64,000 nucleotides of DNA from Oceanococcus sp. (GTDB lineage Bacteria > Pseudomonadota > Gammaproteobacteria > Nevskiales > Oceanococcaceae), in the NCBI GenBank assembly GCA_030147945.1, contig JASBUL010000011.1:62001-126000 (forward strand), given 5' to 3'. Both the position numbers and the translations under genes were made by a program. Of this stretch, positions 4,362 through 51,815 are shown piece after piece (position 1 is the stretch's first letter; each line of letters begins with the position of its first letter). The notes under the pieces were generated by a model. That model ran no database searches, was not told the origin of the DNA, and worked only from the letters and a program-made list of their open reading frames with translations.

Positions 4362-7300
4362 ATGAGCCAGCCGGCCGAATCATTTGCAACCCAGCCCGCC
4401 GCGGCGCACAAGCCTTTGCGCTTTGTCACCGCGGCCTCCCTGTTTGATGGCCATGATGCGTCCATCAACATCATGCGTCGTTTGCTGCAGTCACTGGGCT
4501 GCGAGGTCATCCACCTGGGGCACAACCGCTCGGTGGAGGAAATCGTCACCGCCGCCCTGCAGGAAGACGCCCACGGCATCGCCATCAGCTCTTACCAGGG
4601 CGGCCATGTCGAGTACTTCAAGTACATGATCGACATGCTCAAAGAGCGTGGCGGCGAAAACATCAAAGTCTTCGGCGGTGGTGGCGGCGTGATCGTGCCG
4701 GAGGAAATCCGCGATCTGCATGCCTACGGCGTGGCCCGCATCTATTCGCCACATGACGGACAGAAGCTCGGCCTTGAAGGCATGATCCGCGACATGATCG
4801 AGCGCGCCAGCCAGGACTTGAGCGGTGATGGCGAAGATCTGCTGGGCAAAACCTGTCAGGGCGACCAGCGTGCCCTGGCCCGCCTGATTACGCTGATTGA
4901 AGCGGAGCAAGTGCCCTGCGCCTTCATGGAACGCATCAAGCAGACCGCCAGCAGCAAGCATGTTCCAGTGCTGGGGATTACCGGCACCGGTGGCGCCGGC
5001 AAATCCTCGCTCACCGACGAGGTGATTCGGCGCTTTCGTATCGACCAGCAGGACGAGTTGAAGATCGCCGTTATTGCGGTCGACCCCAGCCGGCGCAAAT
5101 CCGGCGGCGCGCTGCTTGGCGACCGCATCCGCATGAACGCGCTGTACAAAAGCCGTGACGGTGAGTTCAAGATCTTCATGCGCTCGCTGGCCACGCGTGA
5201 AGGCGGCATGGAAGTGTCCAAAGCCCTGCCCGGCGCGATTGCGGCCTGCAAGGCTGCCGGCTTTGACCTGATCGTGGCCGAAACCGCGGGGATTGGTCAG
5301 GGCGACGCCGCCGTGGTCGAGATCGCCGATGTTTCGATGTACGTGATGACACCGGAATTCGGCGCCGCCAGCCAGCTCGAGAAAATCGACATGCTGGACT
5401 TCGCCGATGTCGTGGCGATCAACAAATTCGACCGTCGCGGCGCCGAAGACGCCCTGCGTGATGTGCGCAAGCAGATGCAGCGCAATCAGGTTGCATTCGA
5501 TCGCCCCACCGACGCCATGCCGGCCTACGGCACAATCGCTGCGCGCTTCAACGATGACGGCGTCACCGCGCTGTATTTCGCCCTGAAGGAACAACTGGCC
5601 AAACATCAGCTGGAGCTGCCCGAAGGTCAGCTGGCCCGGCCCGACACCACCATGTCGAGCAAAAGCGATGCGCTGGTGCCGGGTGCGCGTATCCGCTATC
5701 TGGCGGAGATCGCCGACACCGTGCGCGGCTACAAAAAACACGCCGATCATCAGGCTCAGATCGCGCGCGAGCGTCAGCAGCTGCGCGAAGCCAAGCGCAT
5801 GCTGGATCAGGCTGGCGAACCGACCGAGGCGCTCGAGCATCAGCTCAAGAAGCGCGATGATCATCTCAATGCCGAATCACGCCATCTGCTGCAGGACTGG
5901 CCGCAAACGGTGGAAAACTACAGCGGCGACAGCTTCACCTACAGGGTGCGCGACAAGCAGATTTCGGTGGCGCTGACCCGTGAATCCCTGTCCGGCACCA
6001 AGATTCCGAAGGTGGCCCTACCGCGGTTCTCGGATGACGGCGACCTGCTCAACTGGCTGTACAAGGAAAACCTGCCCGGCCGCTTCCCCTACACCGCGGG
6101 CGTGTTCCCGTTCCGGCGTGAAGGTGAAGACCCGGCCCGCATGTTCGCTGGTGAAGGTGGCCCGATTCGCACCAACAAGCGTTTCCACTACCTGTCCGAA
6201 GGCATGCCGGCCGCGCGCCTGTCCACCGCCTTTGATTCGGTCACCTTGTACGGCGAAGACCCGGACCCGCGCCCCGACATCTACGGCAAGGTCGGCAACT
6301 CCGGGGTCTCCATCGCCACCCTGGACGACATGAAGGACCTGTACGCAGGGTTCGACCTGTGCGCACCGACCACCTCGGTATCGATGACCATCAATGGGCC
6401 AGCGCCGACCATCCTGGCGTTTTTCCTCAACACCGCCATCGATCAGCAGGTCGAGGCTTTTGTCGAAGCCGAAGGCCGCCAGCCGCGGCCGGACGAATAC
6501 GAAAACATCAAGGCGCAAACCCTGCGCAGCGTGCGCGGCACGGTGCAGGCCGACATCCTGAAGGAAGACCAGGGCCAGAACACCTGCATCTTCTCCACCG
6601 AGTTCGCCCTCAAATGCATGGGCGATATCCAGGAGTATTTCATCGCCAATCAGGTGCGGAACTTCTACTCCGTGTCGATTTCCGGCTACCACATCGCCGA
6701 AGCTGGGGCCAACCCGATCAGCCAGCTGGCCTTCACCCTGTCCAACGGCTTCACCTTCGTCGAGAGCTACCTGGCGCGGGGCATGGACATCAATGATTTC
6801 GCCCCCAATCTGTCCTTTTTCTTCTCCAACGGCATGGACCCGGAGTACTCGGTCATGGGCCGGGTTGCCCGGCGCATCTGGGCCGTGGCCATGCGCGAGA
6901 AGTACGGCGCCAATGCACGCAGCCAGATGCTGAAGTACCACATTCAGACGTCTGGCCGTTCGCTGCACGCCCAGGAGATCGATTTTAACGATATCCGCAC
7001 CACCCTGCAGGCCCTGATCGCGCTGTACGACAACTGCAATTCGCTGCACACCAATGCCTACGATGAAGCGATCACCACGCCGACCGAGGAATCGGTGCGT
7101 CGGGCGCTGGCAATTCAGCTGATCATCAACAAGGAATGGGGCGTCAACAAGAACGAAAACCCCAACCAGGGCGCCTACATCTTTGATCAGCTCACCGAAC
7201 TGGTGGAAGAAGCCGTGCTGGCCGAATTCGAGCGCATCTCCGAGCGTGGCGGCGTGCTCGGGGCCATGGAAACCGGCTACCAGCGCGGCAAGATCCAGGA

Positions 7301-7640
7301 AGAGTCCATGCACTACGAACACCTCAAGCACTCCGGCGAGCTGCCGGTGGTTGGGGTGAACACCTTCCGCAATCCCAAGGACGACGACGGCCCGCAGGAC
7401 ACCACGCTGGAGCTGGCGCGCTCCACCGATGCGGAGAAGGACGAGCAAATCGAACGTTTGCGCGACTTCCACCAGCGCCATGCCGATCAGGCCCCGCAAG
7501 CCCTAGCCCGGCTGCAGCAGGTGTGCATCGAACGTGGCAACATCTTCGCCGAGCTGATGAACGCGGCGCGGGTCTGTTCTCTGGGACAGATCACCAACGC
7601 CTTGTTTGAAGTCGGCGGCCAGTACCGACGCAACATGTAA
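4362..7640 (+). CDS. icmF: Fused isobutyryl-CoA mutase (IcmF)
   Basis: A 1092-residue adenosylcobalamin enzyme that interconverts isobutyryl-CoA and n-butyryl-CoA. The order is that of IcmF. An N-terminal B12 domain has DGHD at 29-32, with His31 the presumed lower cobalt ligand. A central MeaI-type G-protein chaperone follows, with Walker [10 protein letters not shown] at 208-216 and NKFD from Asn354. The C-terminal acyl-CoA mutase domain has [12 protein letters not shown]. Phe595 (RMFAGEG) and Gln739 (GQNTCIF) stand where methylmalonyl-CoA mutase has Tyr and Arg, and are 144 residues apart as I recall for known IcmF, which argues against methylmalonyl-CoA as substrate. Pivalyl/isovaleryl activity is known for some members. 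The gene is intact and followed after 12 bp by an FAD oxidoreductase. Confidence 0.93.
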
Positions 7641-46601: not shown

Positions 46602-47576
46602 CTACCAGTACGGCGGTGGTGCTTCCAGCGGATCACCACAGGCCGAACATTCCGGCTTGCGTTTGTAGGCGTTGTTTTTCTTGCCGCAGGTGCTGCAGGC
46701 AATCATCACCGGCTTGGCCCGAACCAGCTGATACACGCGCGAATGGGTGCCGTAGGCAAAGCCTTCCTTCATGAACCGATGCACAACCTGCTTGTGGTCT
46801 TCGTTGGGCAGCAGATTTTCTTCCAGGGCTTCGATCGACTCCCAGGCCGACAGCGTGAAACCGGATGAATTGCCGTGTTCATCGGGTGGTCGGGCGCCGA
46901 TGATGCCGGTCACAAAGCCCGGCTTGTCGGCAAAGCTCTCGAGCACCTTGTTGGTCACATCAGCCGCCGCATCGAATGGCTCCTGACCACCGCGCACCAG
47001 CAACCAGGTGATGCCAATGGCCTCGGGCGGTGCACGGTTGCCACGGTTGAGGCGGTAATAGGCACCAAACTGGTAATCACCCTGCTCGCGCGGCATCAGC
47101 AAGGCCAGAAAGCCGAGCTGCTCGGCCAGGGTATCGAGCGCGAAATGATTGTCGACACAGACCTGACCCTGGGCATCAAAACGCAGACTCATGGTCGCTT
47201 CCAGCGCGAGCTCACGCCCGGTCGGGTCAACCGCATCAATGCCCAGACCACCGGGCAGCGGCCCGTCATGCCGGCCGCTCAAACGATAGCCGGCAACAAG
47301 ATTGCGATCACCAATCGAAATGGGGCCGGTCAGCTCAAAACTCAGATTGGGAAACGCGGTGATCAGCGCTTGCGCATGCGCGCGAAACGCCTCACCGGAC
47401 AACGCGCCCTGGCTGAGCGGATCGCGGTAGCTGCTGCCCTGCGCCATCAAGGCCATGATGGCGTCGATATCATGCTTGTTCCAGGCATCCAGAAAGCGCT
47501 GGGCAAAGCCGAGCATGCGTGGCGATTGAACAAACAGCCCCTTGAACAGGCCGGCGAGGATTTTGATCGGACTCAT
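46602..47576 (-). CDS. SnoaL-like / ABM-like / zinc-ribbon fusion protein
   Basis: A 324-residue cytoplasmic protein that appears to be three domains. Residues about 20-150 look like a SnoaL/NTF2 fold (MLGFAQRFLDAWNKHDIDAI, FPNLSFELTGPI), the fold that includes limonene epoxide hydrolase and polyketide cyclases. Residues about 180-280 look like an antibiotic-biosynthesis-monooxygenase/IsdG-type ferredoxin fold (GITWLLVRGGQEPFDAA, WESIEALEENLLP). The C-terminus is a zinc ribbon with CSTCGKK and CSACGDP. I do not know a named protein with this combination. ATG at 47576 overlaps the upstream membrane-protein stop by ATGA, so the two are coupled; substrate is unknown. Confidence 0.6.
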   Translation of the reverse strand: MSPIKILAGLFKGLFVQSPRMLGFAQRFLDAWNKHDIDAIMALMAQGSSYRDPLSQGALSGEAFRAHAQALITAFPNLSFELTGPISIGDRNLVAGYRLSGRHDGPLPGGLGIDAVDPTGRELALEATMSLRFDAQGQVCVDNHFALDTLAEQLGFLALLMPREQGDYQFGAYYRLNRGNRAPPEAIGITWLLVRGGQEPFDAAADVTNKVLESFADKPGFVTGIIGARPPDEHGNSSGFTLSAWESIEALEENLLPNEDHKQVVHRFMKEGFAYGTHSRVYQLVRAKPVMIACSTCGKKNNAYKRKPECSACGDPLEAPPPYW

Positions 47577-48061
47577 GCTTGGGCCTCCAGACGAGTATTG
47601 CGCGCACCGCGCCACAGCAGCCAGGCCTGCGCAAAGGCTGTGGGGACGGCGATCAGGAACAGCAGGTAATTGAGGGTGTTGGTCAGCGAACCGCCGAAGG
47701 CCAGCCCGCGGACACCGAACAGAGCGCCGACCAGAAAACCCAGGCTGTTGGACCAGCCCGTGACGCACACGCAGATGATGTACCAGCGTCGCGCCCCCTG
47801 AGTCAGGCGGATGCTGGCGCCCGCTGCGGCGAAGGCGATCATCGCGATGGCATTGATCAGCAGGCCCAGATGGGTCCGCCGCCAAGCCGCCTCGGTGCCG
47901 GGCATCTGGATATCCAGCGCCGGCAGCAAAGGCCATGCGGCGACATGGCCAATCGCCTCGAAGGTGAAAACCAGACCGATCACCAGACCCAGGCCAAACA
48001 GCCCGGCAGCAGGCGCCAGGATACGGGCGCGCTCCGCCGCGCTCAGATTTTCAGGCCTCAT
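47573..48061 (-). CDS. StyC-like four-helix membrane protein A (putative heme-dependent isomerase)
   Basis: A 162-residue protein with four hydrophobic helices. It is a paralogue of the protein at 48861: both carry a P-G-T-x-x-A-W-R segment, then His and Asn six residues apart (His64, Asn70), GW (GWSN at 102-105) and RGLxFGGSxTN. From memory, styrene oxide isomerase StyC has the same layout: PGSPEGWARAH, heme-ligand His58, Asn64, DGWAN and RGLTFG. This suggests a heme-binding epoxide isomerase-like role, not proven. ATG at 48061 has GAGGAG upstream; a GTG at 48067 overlaps that site. It overlaps the fusion gene and is divergent from TetR. Confidence 0.7.
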   Translation of the reverse strand: MRPENLSAAERARILAPAAGLFGLGLVIGLVFTFEAIGHVAAWPLLPALDIQMPGTEAAWRRTHLGLLINAIAMIAFAAAGASIRLTQGARRWYIICVCVTGWSNSLGFLVGALFGVRGLAFGGSLTNTLNYLLFLIAVPTAFAQAWLLWRGARNTRLEAQA

Positions 48062-48116
48062 CGCCACTCCTCTTGTTGTTGTGTTTGATCATTCGCCTGA
48101 CCGGCAGCCACAAAGA

Positions 48117-48143
48117 TTGACACCGTCAATTTAACACTGTCAA
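48117..48143. promoter_or_regulatory. Tandem operator between StyC-like gene A and tetR
   Basis: Two related 13-bp imperfect dyads, TTGACACCGTCAA (48117-48129) and TTAACACTGTCAA (48131-48143), stand one base apart in front of the tetR ATG at 48152. The outer ends also form TTGACA..TGTCAA. The first TTGACA could serve as a -35 with TCAAAT (48140-48145) as a poor -10, which would put the start of transcription at or near the ATG. This is a likely autoregulatory TetR site covering the divergent gene pair. Confidence 0.65.
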
Positions 48144-48151
48144 ATAAATCC

Positions 48152-48796
48152 ATGGCACGACAAAGCTTGAGCGACACACAGGTGGAACAGCGGCGCGAGG
48201 AAATTCTCGAAGCCGCCATGCAGCTGTTCGAAGACGGTGGCCTGGAGTCGGTCAGCCTGCGCAAGATTGCCGCACGCCTGCAATGCAGCTATTCAACGCC
48301 GTACCGTTATTTCGCCAGCAAGGATGCGCTGCTCACCTCGATGCGCGCCCAGGCCTTTCGCTGGATGGAGCAGAGCATGCTGCGCGCGGTCGACACCCAC
48401 CAGTCGCCGCTGCAGCGCCTCAACCTGCTGGCTGAAGCATTCATACGCGCCGGTGTCGAACGACCGGGCCGCTATGCGCTGATGTTCTTTCGCCTGCCCG
48501 AGCCGGAAACCGGCCCTCACCTGGAAGAACTGACCGCAGCCAAGCACGCTGCGCTGGATGTGTGCACGCGCACCGTCACCGCCGCCCACAACAGCGGCGC
48601 CTTGCACCTCCGCACTGATCCGCTGACCGCCAGCCATCTGTTCTGGGCCGGCGCGCACGGCCTGGTGTCACTGGAGATTTCCGGCCAGTTCGTGATGGGG
48701 CGCCAGCTCGATGACCTGCTGCCAGCCATGATCCAGACCCTGGTTCAGGGGCTGGAGAATGCCAGCGCCAGCATGCAAACCAGCAACGCATCGTGA
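48152..48796 (+). CDS. TetR-family regulator of the StyC-like locus
   Basis: A 214-residue TetR regulator. The helix-turn-helix region is LEAAMQLFEDGGLESVSLRKIAARL followed by STPYRYFASKDALL, the usual TetR pattern with tyrosine in the recognition helix. The C-terminal ligand/dimer domain is typical in size. It is divergent from StyC-like gene A with dyad sequences between, and upstream of gene B on the same strand, so it probably represses both. There is no Shine-Dalgarno before its ATG, consistent with leaderless or weak translation. Ligand unknown. Confidence 0.88.
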   Translation: MARQSLSDTQVEQRREEILEAAMQLFEDGGLESVSLRKIAARLQCSYSTPYRYFASKDALLTSMRAQAFRWMEQSMLRAVDTHQSPLQRLNLLAEAFIRAGVERPGRYALMFFRLPEPETGPHLEELTAAKHAALDVCTRTVTAAHNSGALHLRTDPLTASHLFWAGAHGLVSLEISGQFVMGRQLDDLLPAMIQTLVQGLENASASMQTSNAS

Positions 48797-48860
48797 GATG
48801 TGACGGCTGGATCAGCCAAACCAACAGAACAACAGCCGCTGACATACAAAGGAGACCCGC

Positions 48861-49343
48861 ATGACCGCCGATCTTGAAAACACCAAACGTCTGCTCGTAG
48901 GCCACGGCGCACTGCTGATTTTCATCGGCGGGGTGCTGGGTTTCGGCTTCCTGTTTTTCCTCATGGAACGCGTCGCGTTGTGGCCGTTTCCCTTCAGCAT
49001 TGATGTGCAGCTACCCGGCACCTATGACGCCTGGCGTATGGCCCACATGGAAGGCATCGTCAACGGCTTTGGGCTGTGGATTGCCGCAGCCGTGCTGCCG
49101 GTGTTTCCGTTTGGCCTGAAAGCGCTCAAACGTATCGCCTGGGGTCTGATCTCGGTGGGCTGGACCATCGTCATCGCCTCCGCCCTGGATCCGCTGTTTC
49201 CGGACAGCCGAGGCCTGGAATTTGGTGGCTCGGCAACCAACCAGCTCGCCTTCTTCCTGTTCTACTGGGGCGTGGTGCTCGTGATGATCATCATGGGCGT
49301 GATTGCGTGGCGCTGCCTGCGCCCGCATAAACAGCCGGACTAG
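48861..49343 (+). CDS. StyC-like four-helix membrane protein B (putative heme-dependent isomerase)
   Basis: A 160-residue protein with four hydrophobic helices, 64 bp after tetR, with AAGGAG upstream of the ATG. The start LLVGHGALLIF recalls the AGHG..MIF start of StyC. LPGTYDAWRMAH is followed by Asn68, six residues after His62; RGLEFGGSATN is conserved with protein A. It has GWTI where A and StyC have GW(S/A)N, so a polar residue near the active site differs. Likely binds heme via His62 if the StyC comparison holds. The function, presumably epoxide or related isomerisation, is inferred. Confidence 0.7.
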   Translation: MTADLENTKRLLVGHGALLIFIGGVLGFGFLFFLMERVALWPFPFSIDVQLPGTYDAWRMAHMEGIVNGFGLWIAAAVLPVFPFGLKALKRIAWGLISVGWTIVIASALDPLFPDSRGLEFGGSATNQLAFFLFYWGVVLVMIIMGVIAWRCLRPHKQPD

Positions 49344-49499: not shown

Positions 49500-51815
49500 A
49501 TGGTGATTGGGCGACGCGCAGCAGCGCTGGTGGTGCTGTGGGCAGGCGCAATGCTTGCAGGATGCGGGCAAGGTGGTCGCGATGCGGCCACAGCGACAAA
49601 CAGGGACGATGCGGCGGCGCCGATCATCGAAATTCTTTCCAACCGCGCCGACATGATCAGTGGCGACGACGCCCTGATCGGGATTCGTGCGCACGATGGT
49701 GCGCCACTCAATGCCATTCACGTCAGTCTGAATGGCAGCGATGTGAGTGCACTTTTCCACCCCATGCCCGACGGCTCGCTGATGGGCCGTATTGAGGGGC
49801 TCAAGCTCGGCGAGAACACGCTCAGCGCCCGTGCCGGTGGCGCACAGGCCCAAAGCCAGATCTACAACTATCCGAATCAGGGCCCGATCTTTTCGCGTCC
49901 GGAAATCAAACGTTACCGCTGCCAGGACAGCGCCACCGACATTCACTGCAACCAACCGGCCGAATACACCTATCTGTATCGTCCCAATGCGTTTGTAGAC
50001 AACCTTGATGTAGTCACCGACATCGTGCCGATCGCCGAGTTGGGCACCGAGTTGCTGCCCTACGATCCGCAGAATCCACCCGACGATGTGGCCATGACGA
50101 CCACGCAAAATGGCCAGACCGTGCCCTTCATCGTGCGTTTAGAGCGCGGCTATCAGGATCGCGACGAATACAAGATTCTGACGCTGTTCAACCCCGATGA
50201 GGCCTGGGAGCCCTGGGCCCCGCAGCCGCAATGGAATGGCAAAATGCTGATCACCCACGGCGGCAACTGCGGCGCAAAGTACCGCCCGGGCAGCGCCCCT
50301 TTGGATGACTATTCCGGCACCTTTGGCGACCTGCCCCTGCTCGAACCCAGCTATATCTACGCGCTGGGTCAGGGCTATGCCGTGCTCTCGACCGCACTGG
50401 CCAACACCGGACACAACTGCGACGTAGCACTCAACGCCGAATCAATCATGATGGCCAAAGAGCGCTTCGTGGAGCAGTACGGCCCACTGCGCTACACCAT
50501 CGGCACCGGTTGTTCGGGCGGCTCGATTGCCCAGCTGACCATCGCCAACGCCTATCCGGGTCTCTACCAGGGCTTGCTGGTTATGTGCGCCTATCCCGAC
50601 TCGTTGTCGGCAGGCCTGCAGTTCGCCGATCTGCATCTCATGCGCAAGTACTTTGAGGCGCCCGCGCGCTGGGCACCCGGCGTGATCTGGAACCCGCTGC
50701 TGTGGGGGCCGGTTGAAGGCCATCTGACCCACCTCAACGCCATCGTCGCTGACGAAGGTCTGTTCAAAGCTGCCACCCAAACCACCGGTGATTGCTTTGC
50801 CGAAAATACCTACGATCCCGAAACCAACCCCACCGGGCAACGTTGCGGCATTCTCGAGTGGATTCCGCACATCCTCGGACAACGCTCTCCCGAGGTCTGG
50901 TCGGATATCGAAAAGCAGGTCGGCTACGGTTTCACCGGCATTCCGCTGGGCAACACCGGTGTTCAGTACGGTCTCAAGGCACTGCGGGCGGGTTTGATCA
51001 CACCGGCCATGTTTGTCGATCTGAACGTCAAGATCGGCGGTCTCGACATCGATATGCAACCGCAGGAAGCGCGCACGCGTGCCGACAACCCGGCCGTGGG
51101 CAATGCCTATCGCAGTGGCATGATCAACATGACCAACAATCTGGATACCGTGCCGATCCTGAATTTTGTCGGCCCGGACCCCGGCATTGCGCACGACGCC
51201 CTGCACGCCTGGTGGATACGCTGGCGCATTGAGCGCGAGCACGGCAGCGCACGCAATCATGTGATGTGGGCCGGCCCGGTGCCGCTGCTGGGCGATCTGT
51301 CCTATGTGTACAAAGGCCTGGATGCGATGGATCGCTGGCTGTCCAATATCGAAACCGATCTGAGCGACACGCCCCTGCCGGACAAAATCTCCCGCAACCG
51401 GCCTGGTGATATTCAGGACCAGTGCGCCGTGGTTGCCGGGCAACCGATCCTAGGCGAGGTTTGCGTCGATTTACTGCGCCCGCTATACGCTTATGGCACC
51501 CCACGCACCGTAGCCGGCGATACGCAAACGGCGGACAACTTTGATTGTCAGCTCAAACCCATGGATCGCAATGACGACTATGGGCTTGTGCCGTTCACCG
51601 ACGCGCAGTGGGAGCAATTGCAGAGTGCTTTCCCTGATGGTGTGTGCGACTACCGCGCGCCGGGCAAGAACAAGCAGAAGACGGTGTCGTGGCTGACCTA
51701 CGTGGACAACAGCGGTCGCATGATCGTGGGTGGCGAACCGCTACCGCCACCGCCGGCCCGGTCCGCCACAGGCACCCAGGCCGCAGCCTTCGTCTACCCG
51801 ATCCGCGACCGTTGA
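49500..51815 (+). CDS. DUF6351 family lipoprotein, putative alpha/beta hydrolase
   Basis: A 771-residue exported protein. The signal peptide ends in the lipobox LAGC (Cys22). The core contains GKMLITHGGNCGAKY, TALANTGHNCDVALNAES and TIGTGCSGGSIAQL, the last a G-x-S-x-G-like nucleophile elbow; Cys residues are frequent. This fits DUF6351, a tannase/feruloyl-esterase-like hydrolase group of unknown substrate common in hydrocarbon-associated proteobacteria. The 156-bp gap upstream has AGGAG before the ATG. Substrate unknown; a link to the upstream isomerase-like genes is position only. Confidence 0.75.
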   Translation: MVIGRRAAALVVLWAGAMLAGCGQGGRDAATATNRDDAAAPIIEILSNRADMISGDDALIGIRAHDGAPLNAIHVSLNGSDVSALFHPMPDGSLMGRIEGLKLGENTLSARAGGAQAQSQIYNYPNQGPIFSRPEIKRYRCQDSATDIHCNQPAEYTYLYRPNAFVDNLDVVTDIVPIAELGTELLPYDPQNPPDDVAMTTTQNGQTVPFIVRLERGYQDRDEYKILTLFNPDEAWEPWAPQPQWNGKMLITHGGNCGAKYRPGSAPLDDYSGTFGDLPLLEPSYIYALGQGYAVLSTALANTGHNCDVALNAESIMMAKERFVEQYGPLRYTIGTGCSGGSIAQLTIANAYPGLYQGLLVMCAYPDSLSAGLQFADLHLMRKYFEAPARWAPGVIWNPLLWGPVEGHLTHLNAIVADEGLFKAATQTTGDCFAENTYDPETNPTGQRCGILEWIPHILGQRSPEVWSDIEKQVGYGFTGIPLGNTGVQYGLKALRAGLITPAMFVDLNVKIGGLDIDMQPQEARTRADNPAVGNAYRSGMINMTNNLDTVPILNFVGPDPGIAHDALHAWWIRWRIEREHGSARNHVMWAGPVPLLGDLSYVYKGLDAMDRWLSNIETDLSDTPLPDKISRNRPGDIQDQCAVVAGQPILGEVCVDLLRPLYAYGTPRTVAGDTQTADNFDCQLKPMDRNDDYGLVPFTDAQWEQLQSAFPDGVCDYRAPGKNKQKTVSWLTYVDNSGRMIVGGEPLPPPPARSATGTQAAAFVYPIRDR

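Follow-up and report, generated by a model that had tools for sequence, protein, structure and literature searches.

The window, i.e. the whole stretch of 64,000 nucleotides analysed here, contains four genes arranged around a short palindromic element:

46602..47576, minus strand: P0001, SnoaL-domain protein of 324 aa, second gene of the P0002 operon (Pfam SnoaL_2, 3.9e-14)
47573..48061, minus strand: P0002, four-helix membrane protein resembling styrene oxide isomerase (SOI), Phe103 type (NCBIfam StyC 8.8e-14; PDB SOI 4.3e-7)
48117..48143, no strand assigned: candidate TetR operator TTGACACCGTCAATTTAACACTGTCAA, an interrupted palindrome of 27 bp flanked by P0002 and the TetR gene, which are divergent
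48152..48796, plus strand: P0003, TetR-family regulator (Pfam TetR_C_33 4.9e-17, TetR_N 4.6e-13)
48861..49343, plus strand: P0004, SOI-like four-helix membrane protein, Ser103 type, from the PF10118-linked clade (NCBIfam StyC 3e-14)

All four genes are present at the coordinates and with the motifs that an earlier note on this DNA had given. P0002 carries PGTEAAWRRTHLGLLIN, TGWSN and RGLAFGGSLTN, and P0004 carries PGTYDAWRMAHMEGIVN, VGWTI and RGLEFGGSATN. The two proteins are paralogs (35% identity across 116 aa, E 8e-16), both with an equivalent of the heme-ligand His of SOI, which in P0004 is His62. The overlap between the P0002 stop and the P0001 start, an ATGA at 47573-47576, was likewise confirmed, and the start codon of P0003 lies 8 bp past the palindrome. 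Directly downstream of P0004 a DUF6351 tannase-like protein is encoded (49500-51815, plus strand, 685.7 bits). We rejected this gene as a conserved part of the pathway since none of the 25 outside loci described below contributed a member to its cluster, which held copies from the window only.

No Pfam family scored above cut-off with P0002 or P0004. Both match the NCBIfam StyC model NF045734, with 51.8 and 53.3 bits respectively, which is far below the 150 bits or more that define a StyC equivalog. Their only convincing matches among PDB sequences are two styrene oxide isomerases, 30tw and 8pnu (3.5e-9 and 1e-7 for P0004; for P0002 the SOI match at 4.3e-7). The AlphaFold model of P0004 shows four long helices (pLDDT 82.5), and SOI 8pnu_A was its sole significant match when compared with the PDB by Foldseek (E 1.7e-6, TM 0.81/0.84). 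By profile, PDB sequence and AlphaFold/Foldseek, the two proteins are remote members of the SOI/StyC superfamily. The relationship to StyC proposed in the earlier note is thereby supported, and the searches led to the SOI superfamily with its conserved His, not to an unrelated four-helix family. A search of viral contigs found no relatives of P0004.

Which residues are kept and which are changed can be judged against the characterised enzyme. In SOI the heme is ligated by His58/His57, Arg111 presumably keeps one of its propionates in place, and mutants of D95 and N64 are impaired (PMC11374702, PMC12502698). The alanine mutants N99A and Y103A are dead, and the heme is ferric, with a Lewis acid role and an open sixth site (PMC11374702). 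Among 116 aligned relatives the His58 equivalent is invariant (116/116) and Asn64 is kept in 113, so that the conserved His and its paired Asn bear out what had been noticed in the two window proteins; the Arg112 position holds Arg in 94 relatives and His in 21. At the positions of D95, N99 and Y103 the alignment gives V, I and S for P0004, and T, N and F for P0002. Throughout the P0004 clade the first of these positions is V/I/T, the second I/F/L, and the third is Ser in 42 of 44 members, while the P0002 clade has Thr, Asn and Phe (9 of 9). With N99 and Y103 replaced in the PF10118-linked clade, the same chemistry as in SOI is not to be assumed, and the loss of this Tyr and Asn is the main ground for caution on mechanism. 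Because the scores fall short of 150 bits and the catalytic positions differ, both proteins are, judged from their sequences, members of the superfamily that stand outside the StyC family as its model and catalytic residues define it. Of the epoxide-isomerase role suggested earlier, the homology to SOI therefore holds, but equivalence to StyC does not, and an activity on epoxides would be a presumption.

The larger result lies in genomic neighbourhoods beyond the window. With P0004 as the only query, 84,980 species genomes yielded 25 loci, and in 25 out of 25 the SOI-like gene adjoins a gene of family PF10118, which in L012 is cut off by the contig start. These loci belong to Alpha-, Gamma- and Deltaproteobacteria, Acidimicrobiales and Binatia, and their regulators vary (TetR, PadR, MerR/MEDS, AraC). 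Of 85 genomes from the window's order, 43 encode SOI-like proteins, up to seven each; contrary to the picture in the earlier note, SOI relatives are not confined to single genes beside a styrene monooxygenase. For this order 80 regions were fetched and gene-mapped, and adjacency was counted from them. PF10118 lies within 2.5 kb at 43 of 77 SOI-like loci, against a chance expectation of less than 1, our own estimate from about five PF10118 genes per 4 Mb genome. The nearby pairs are on the same strand in 58 of 75 cases.

Resolved by clade, adjacency to PF10118 is found at 40 of 44 loci in the P0004 clade (41 counting L012), at 10 of 11 in the clade of the tandem second SOI-like gene, at five of seven in the clade of this genome's third SOI-like paralog, and at 15 of 21 in a clade with an Arg-to-His exchange, there with a different PF10118 subfamily. 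At StyC-type loci it is 0 of 13 (the clade count also lists two PDB references); the members of the StyC-type clades that were tested exceed the StyC cut-off. Two different PF10118 subfamilies hence accompany two different SOI-like clades, and the tree distances of SOI-like and PF10118 proteins are correlated (Mantel r 0.54, 0/2000 permutations), to which shared species ancestry contributes. The clade with the Arg-to-His exchange (L117-L135 and relatives) is a separate one, with Arg112 replaced by His in 20 of 21 members and its PF10118 gene divergently transcribed.

The common operon reads TetR-PF10118-SOI-like and in many cases includes a second SOI-like gene; Sinimarinibacterium flocculans (L013) has an intact operon of this kind. 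Ser103-type and Phe103-type genes are frequently paired under one operator, in tandem in L094, L096 and L099-L104 and divergently in the window. No dedicated electron donor or reductase was seen in the PF10118-SOI-like operons, whose neighbour genes also indicate no substrate. For the other SOI-like clades the flanking genes (acyl-CoA synthetase, aldehyde dehydrogenase, SDR, AcrB, LuxR) are too mixed to name one. At two loci, L108 (G046; 5086-7575) and L092 (4033-4938), the SOI-like and/or PF10118 gene appears split over two reading frames, which suggests frameshifts or assembly errors.

Could the two window proteins nevertheless be ordinary catabolic StyC paralogs, isomerising foreign aromatic epoxides, with the gene pairing devoid of deeper function? 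Clear SOI homology and fold would fit. However, their scores below the equivalog cut-off, the changed catalytic residues and the conservation of the PF10118 linkage across phyla speak against it. Furthermore, as the earlier note had supposed, styrene monooxygenase is missing: StyA (PF17885) is absent from this genome (93.5% complete) and from the sister species G067 (99%), while the positive control, G031, was found. We consider this explanation very improbable. The control itself is a locus of G031 (L166, 3001-5486) in which a true StyC (249 bits) adjoins StyA; the same genome has seven SOI-like matches. This StyC beside StyA shows that the same order harbours canonical styrene modules as well as the PF10118 type.

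In Pfam, PF10118 is named a "predicted metal-dependent hydrolase", a name for which we found no support. Across 73 members linked to SOI-like genes and 10 that are not, the residues E48, E78xxH81, E130, H162 and E165/E166xxH169 do not vary, apart from one gap at E48. They form the ligand pattern E, ExxH, E, ExxH, one set on each of the helices H31-59, H65-95, H119-142 and H153-181 of an all-helical AlphaFold model of an SOI-linked member (pLDDT 91). The PF10118 profile matched no solved structure among the PDB sequences. The top 50 Foldseek matches of the model are nearly all ferritin-like diiron or related proteins, including desaturases, CmlI, R2, R2lox, AurF and toluene monooxygenase, although the matches are weak (best E 0.029, TM mostly 0.35-0.5). 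Invariant ligand residues and predicted fold together suggest that PF10118 is probably a ferritin-like diiron oxygenase, whose residues would bind the metal.

The palindrome probably links these genes over a distance. It had been described as an operator-like tandem dyad, of which the operator-like element stands, but it is a single interrupted palindrome and not a tandem. Orthologs of P0003 precede PF10118-SOI-like operons, which fits the association with TetR that the earlier note had suggested looking for in related species. A palindrome ahead of the related TetR genes is present at all 31 loci examined, with the consensus TTGACAnTRTTAAnTTAAYRnTGTCAA and usually 8-12 bp before the TetR start. 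This conservation is consistent with the TetR control proposed before, in which the regulator would occupy the site. The chance expectation for the operator in the window is 0; the pattern has matches in 33 of the 85 genomes of the order, compared to one match in all 85 for a reversed-pattern control.

In this genome there are exactly two sites, one at 48117-48143 of the window and one on contig C124, where it precedes an operon of a second TetR gene, PF10118 and the third SOI-like gene. Both sites recur in the sister species G067. In the window itself, where a gap of 64 bp separates TetR and P0004, no PF10118 gene was found. Other members of the order show related arrangements. In G061 a TetR-SOI-like pair occurs without PF10118, which is found by itself after a further operator copy, and in G035 (L114) PF10118-TetR and the orthologs of P0002-P0001 are transcribed away from each other on either side of a single operator. 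Based on the shared operator and these two arrangements, P0004, P0002, P0001 and the distant PF10118 likely constitute one regulon. The window locus is a rearranged piece of a widespread PF10118-SOI-like gene set.

The second site deserves a separate remark. At this locus (L149, contig C124, 4000-6205) the order is operator-TetR-PF10118-third SOI-like gene, and the third protein keeps Asn99 and Tyr103; in this genome the SOI-like protein adjoining PF10118 is the more SOI-like one. A related palindrome, TTGACAsTGTAAAwTTTACAsTGTCAA, is found before more distant TetR paralogs in L173 and L175-L178, where no PF10118 or SOI-like gene was detected in the 3-kb stretch.

P0001 had been read as a fusion of SnoaL, ABM and zinc-ribbon domains. 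The SnoaL domain is certain (SnoaL_2, 53.5 bits versus a Pfam cut-off of 27), and the zinc ribbon is supported by C294xxC297...C310xxC313, which is invariant in eight orthologs, the Pfam matches being weak (best 2.1e-4). For ABM (PF03992), however, there is no match in P0001 and the best one, in a single ortholog, reaches E 0.014 and 16 bits versus a cut-off of 23.1; this domain is not established, and the middle region is one that is conserved among orthologs. Orthologs of P0001 lie directly downstream of P0002 orthologs in eight out of eight genomes with both in one region, again as neighbours expected from the earlier note; in G003 and G068 P0001 occurs without an adjacent SOI-like gene. 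P0002 thus has a conserved partner in the SnoaL fusion. Its proposed partnership with the SOI-like proteins holds for the P0002 subclade, but only for that one, and the key conserved partner of these proteins is PF10118.

Taken together, we propose a single regulon under TetR, where a diiron oxygenase would oxidise a hydrophobic substrate and heme-containing SOI-like proteins would rearrange the product, with the unit split in this genome; we would give this reading an even chance of being correct. The ancestral and commonest unit would be TetR, PF10118 and a Ser103-type SOI-like gene, often followed by a second one of the Phe103 type. The substrate of PF10118 would be hydrophobic and unsaturated, and its oxidation could plausibly yield an epoxide. 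With heme b carried on the conserved His at the subunit interface, as in SOI, the SOI-like proteins would act as Lewis acids on the oxidised product and rearrange it, in a pocket unlike that of StyC. TetR may repress both directions from one operator as long as its ligand is absent. The window operator would in this genome control P0004 and the P0002-P0001 operon, and the second copy, on the other contig, would control PF10118 with the third SOI-like protein. The SnoaL fusion would serve the P0002 branch as a soluble partner and perhaps act on the product of P0002.

The fate of the SOI residues leaves room for a different role of the membrane proteins. Instead of acting as isomerases, they might be heme proteins that serve the PF10118 oxygenase as membrane anchor or electron donor. 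Loss of the Tyr/Asn network with retention of heme ligand and propionate Arg would agree with this, as would the tight operon pairing, mostly on the same strand, and the lack of a reductase in the operons. In SOI, however, the heme is ferric, leaves its sixth site open and works as a Lewis acid (PMC11374702), and clades with intact Asn99 and Tyr103 (that of the third paralog and the Arg-to-His clade) are paired with PF10118 as well, which suggests chemistry over electron transfer. We regard such a role as unlikely. To a similar degree we doubt that the SOI-like proteins act on a PF10118 product other than an epoxide (a hydroperoxide, diol or alcohol), as heme isomerase, lyase or dehydratase. 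Pocket residues strongly unlike those of SOI would allow it, but the only characterised relatives of the fold are epoxide isomerases and there is no direct evidence of another reaction.

Returning to oxidation followed by rearrangement, the pairing of Ser103 and Phe103 types under one operator, together with the heme of SOI at the subunit interface, suggests mixed oligomers of the two types, which is speculation. A broader proposal is more tentative than the regulon itself, and we judge its chances to be below even: PF10118 may be a large undescribed family of ferritin-like diiron oxygenases, one branch of which works with complementary Ser103 and Phe103 SOI-like proteins, possibly hetero-oligomers holding heme between unlike subunits, in a widespread pathway by which a natural hydrophobic substrate is first oxidised and then rearranged.

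We found no description linking SOI with PF10118 in a literature search from whose scope subscription journals mostly fell out, so that a prior description is possible. The SOI fold emerges as a large and diverse bacterial family, present in several phyla, which keeps the heme ligand, changes the pocket and adjoins an unstudied family of iron-type oxygenases. This yields many new candidate biocatalysts and a functional lead for PF10118, and the operator of the regulon makes the pathway easy to find and to induce.

Among known systems, StyC/SOI (8pnu/8pnv, 30tw; NF045734) is the closest to P0002 and P0004. They have in common the four-helix membrane fold, the PGTxxxW..H motif with the heme-ligand His, the Asn six residues on, GW and RGL. 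In P0002 and P0004, D95/N99/Y103 are replaced, the scores are 52-53 bits versus 150 and a styrene monooxygenase is lacking, and loci of their type are paired with PF10118 and a TetR operator. The SnoaL-like polyketide cyclases and ketosteroid isomerase-like proteins resemble the N-terminal domain of P0001, which extends into a conserved middle region followed by a C-terminal zinc ribbon and shares its operon with a membrane protein. With ferritin-like diiron oxygenases (CmlI, AurF, stearoyl-ACP desaturase, R2lox) PF10118 shares E, ExxH, E, ExxH on four helices; it differs in having no sequence match to solved structures, Foldseek E-values above 0.001 and a hydrolase name in Pfam, and its gene is located outside the window. 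In outline, the arrangement is like StyAB-StyC, an oxygenase gene beside a membrane protein of the heme epoxide-isomerase type, whereas the oxygenase would here be the ferritin-like PF10118 protein and not a flavin monooxygenase.
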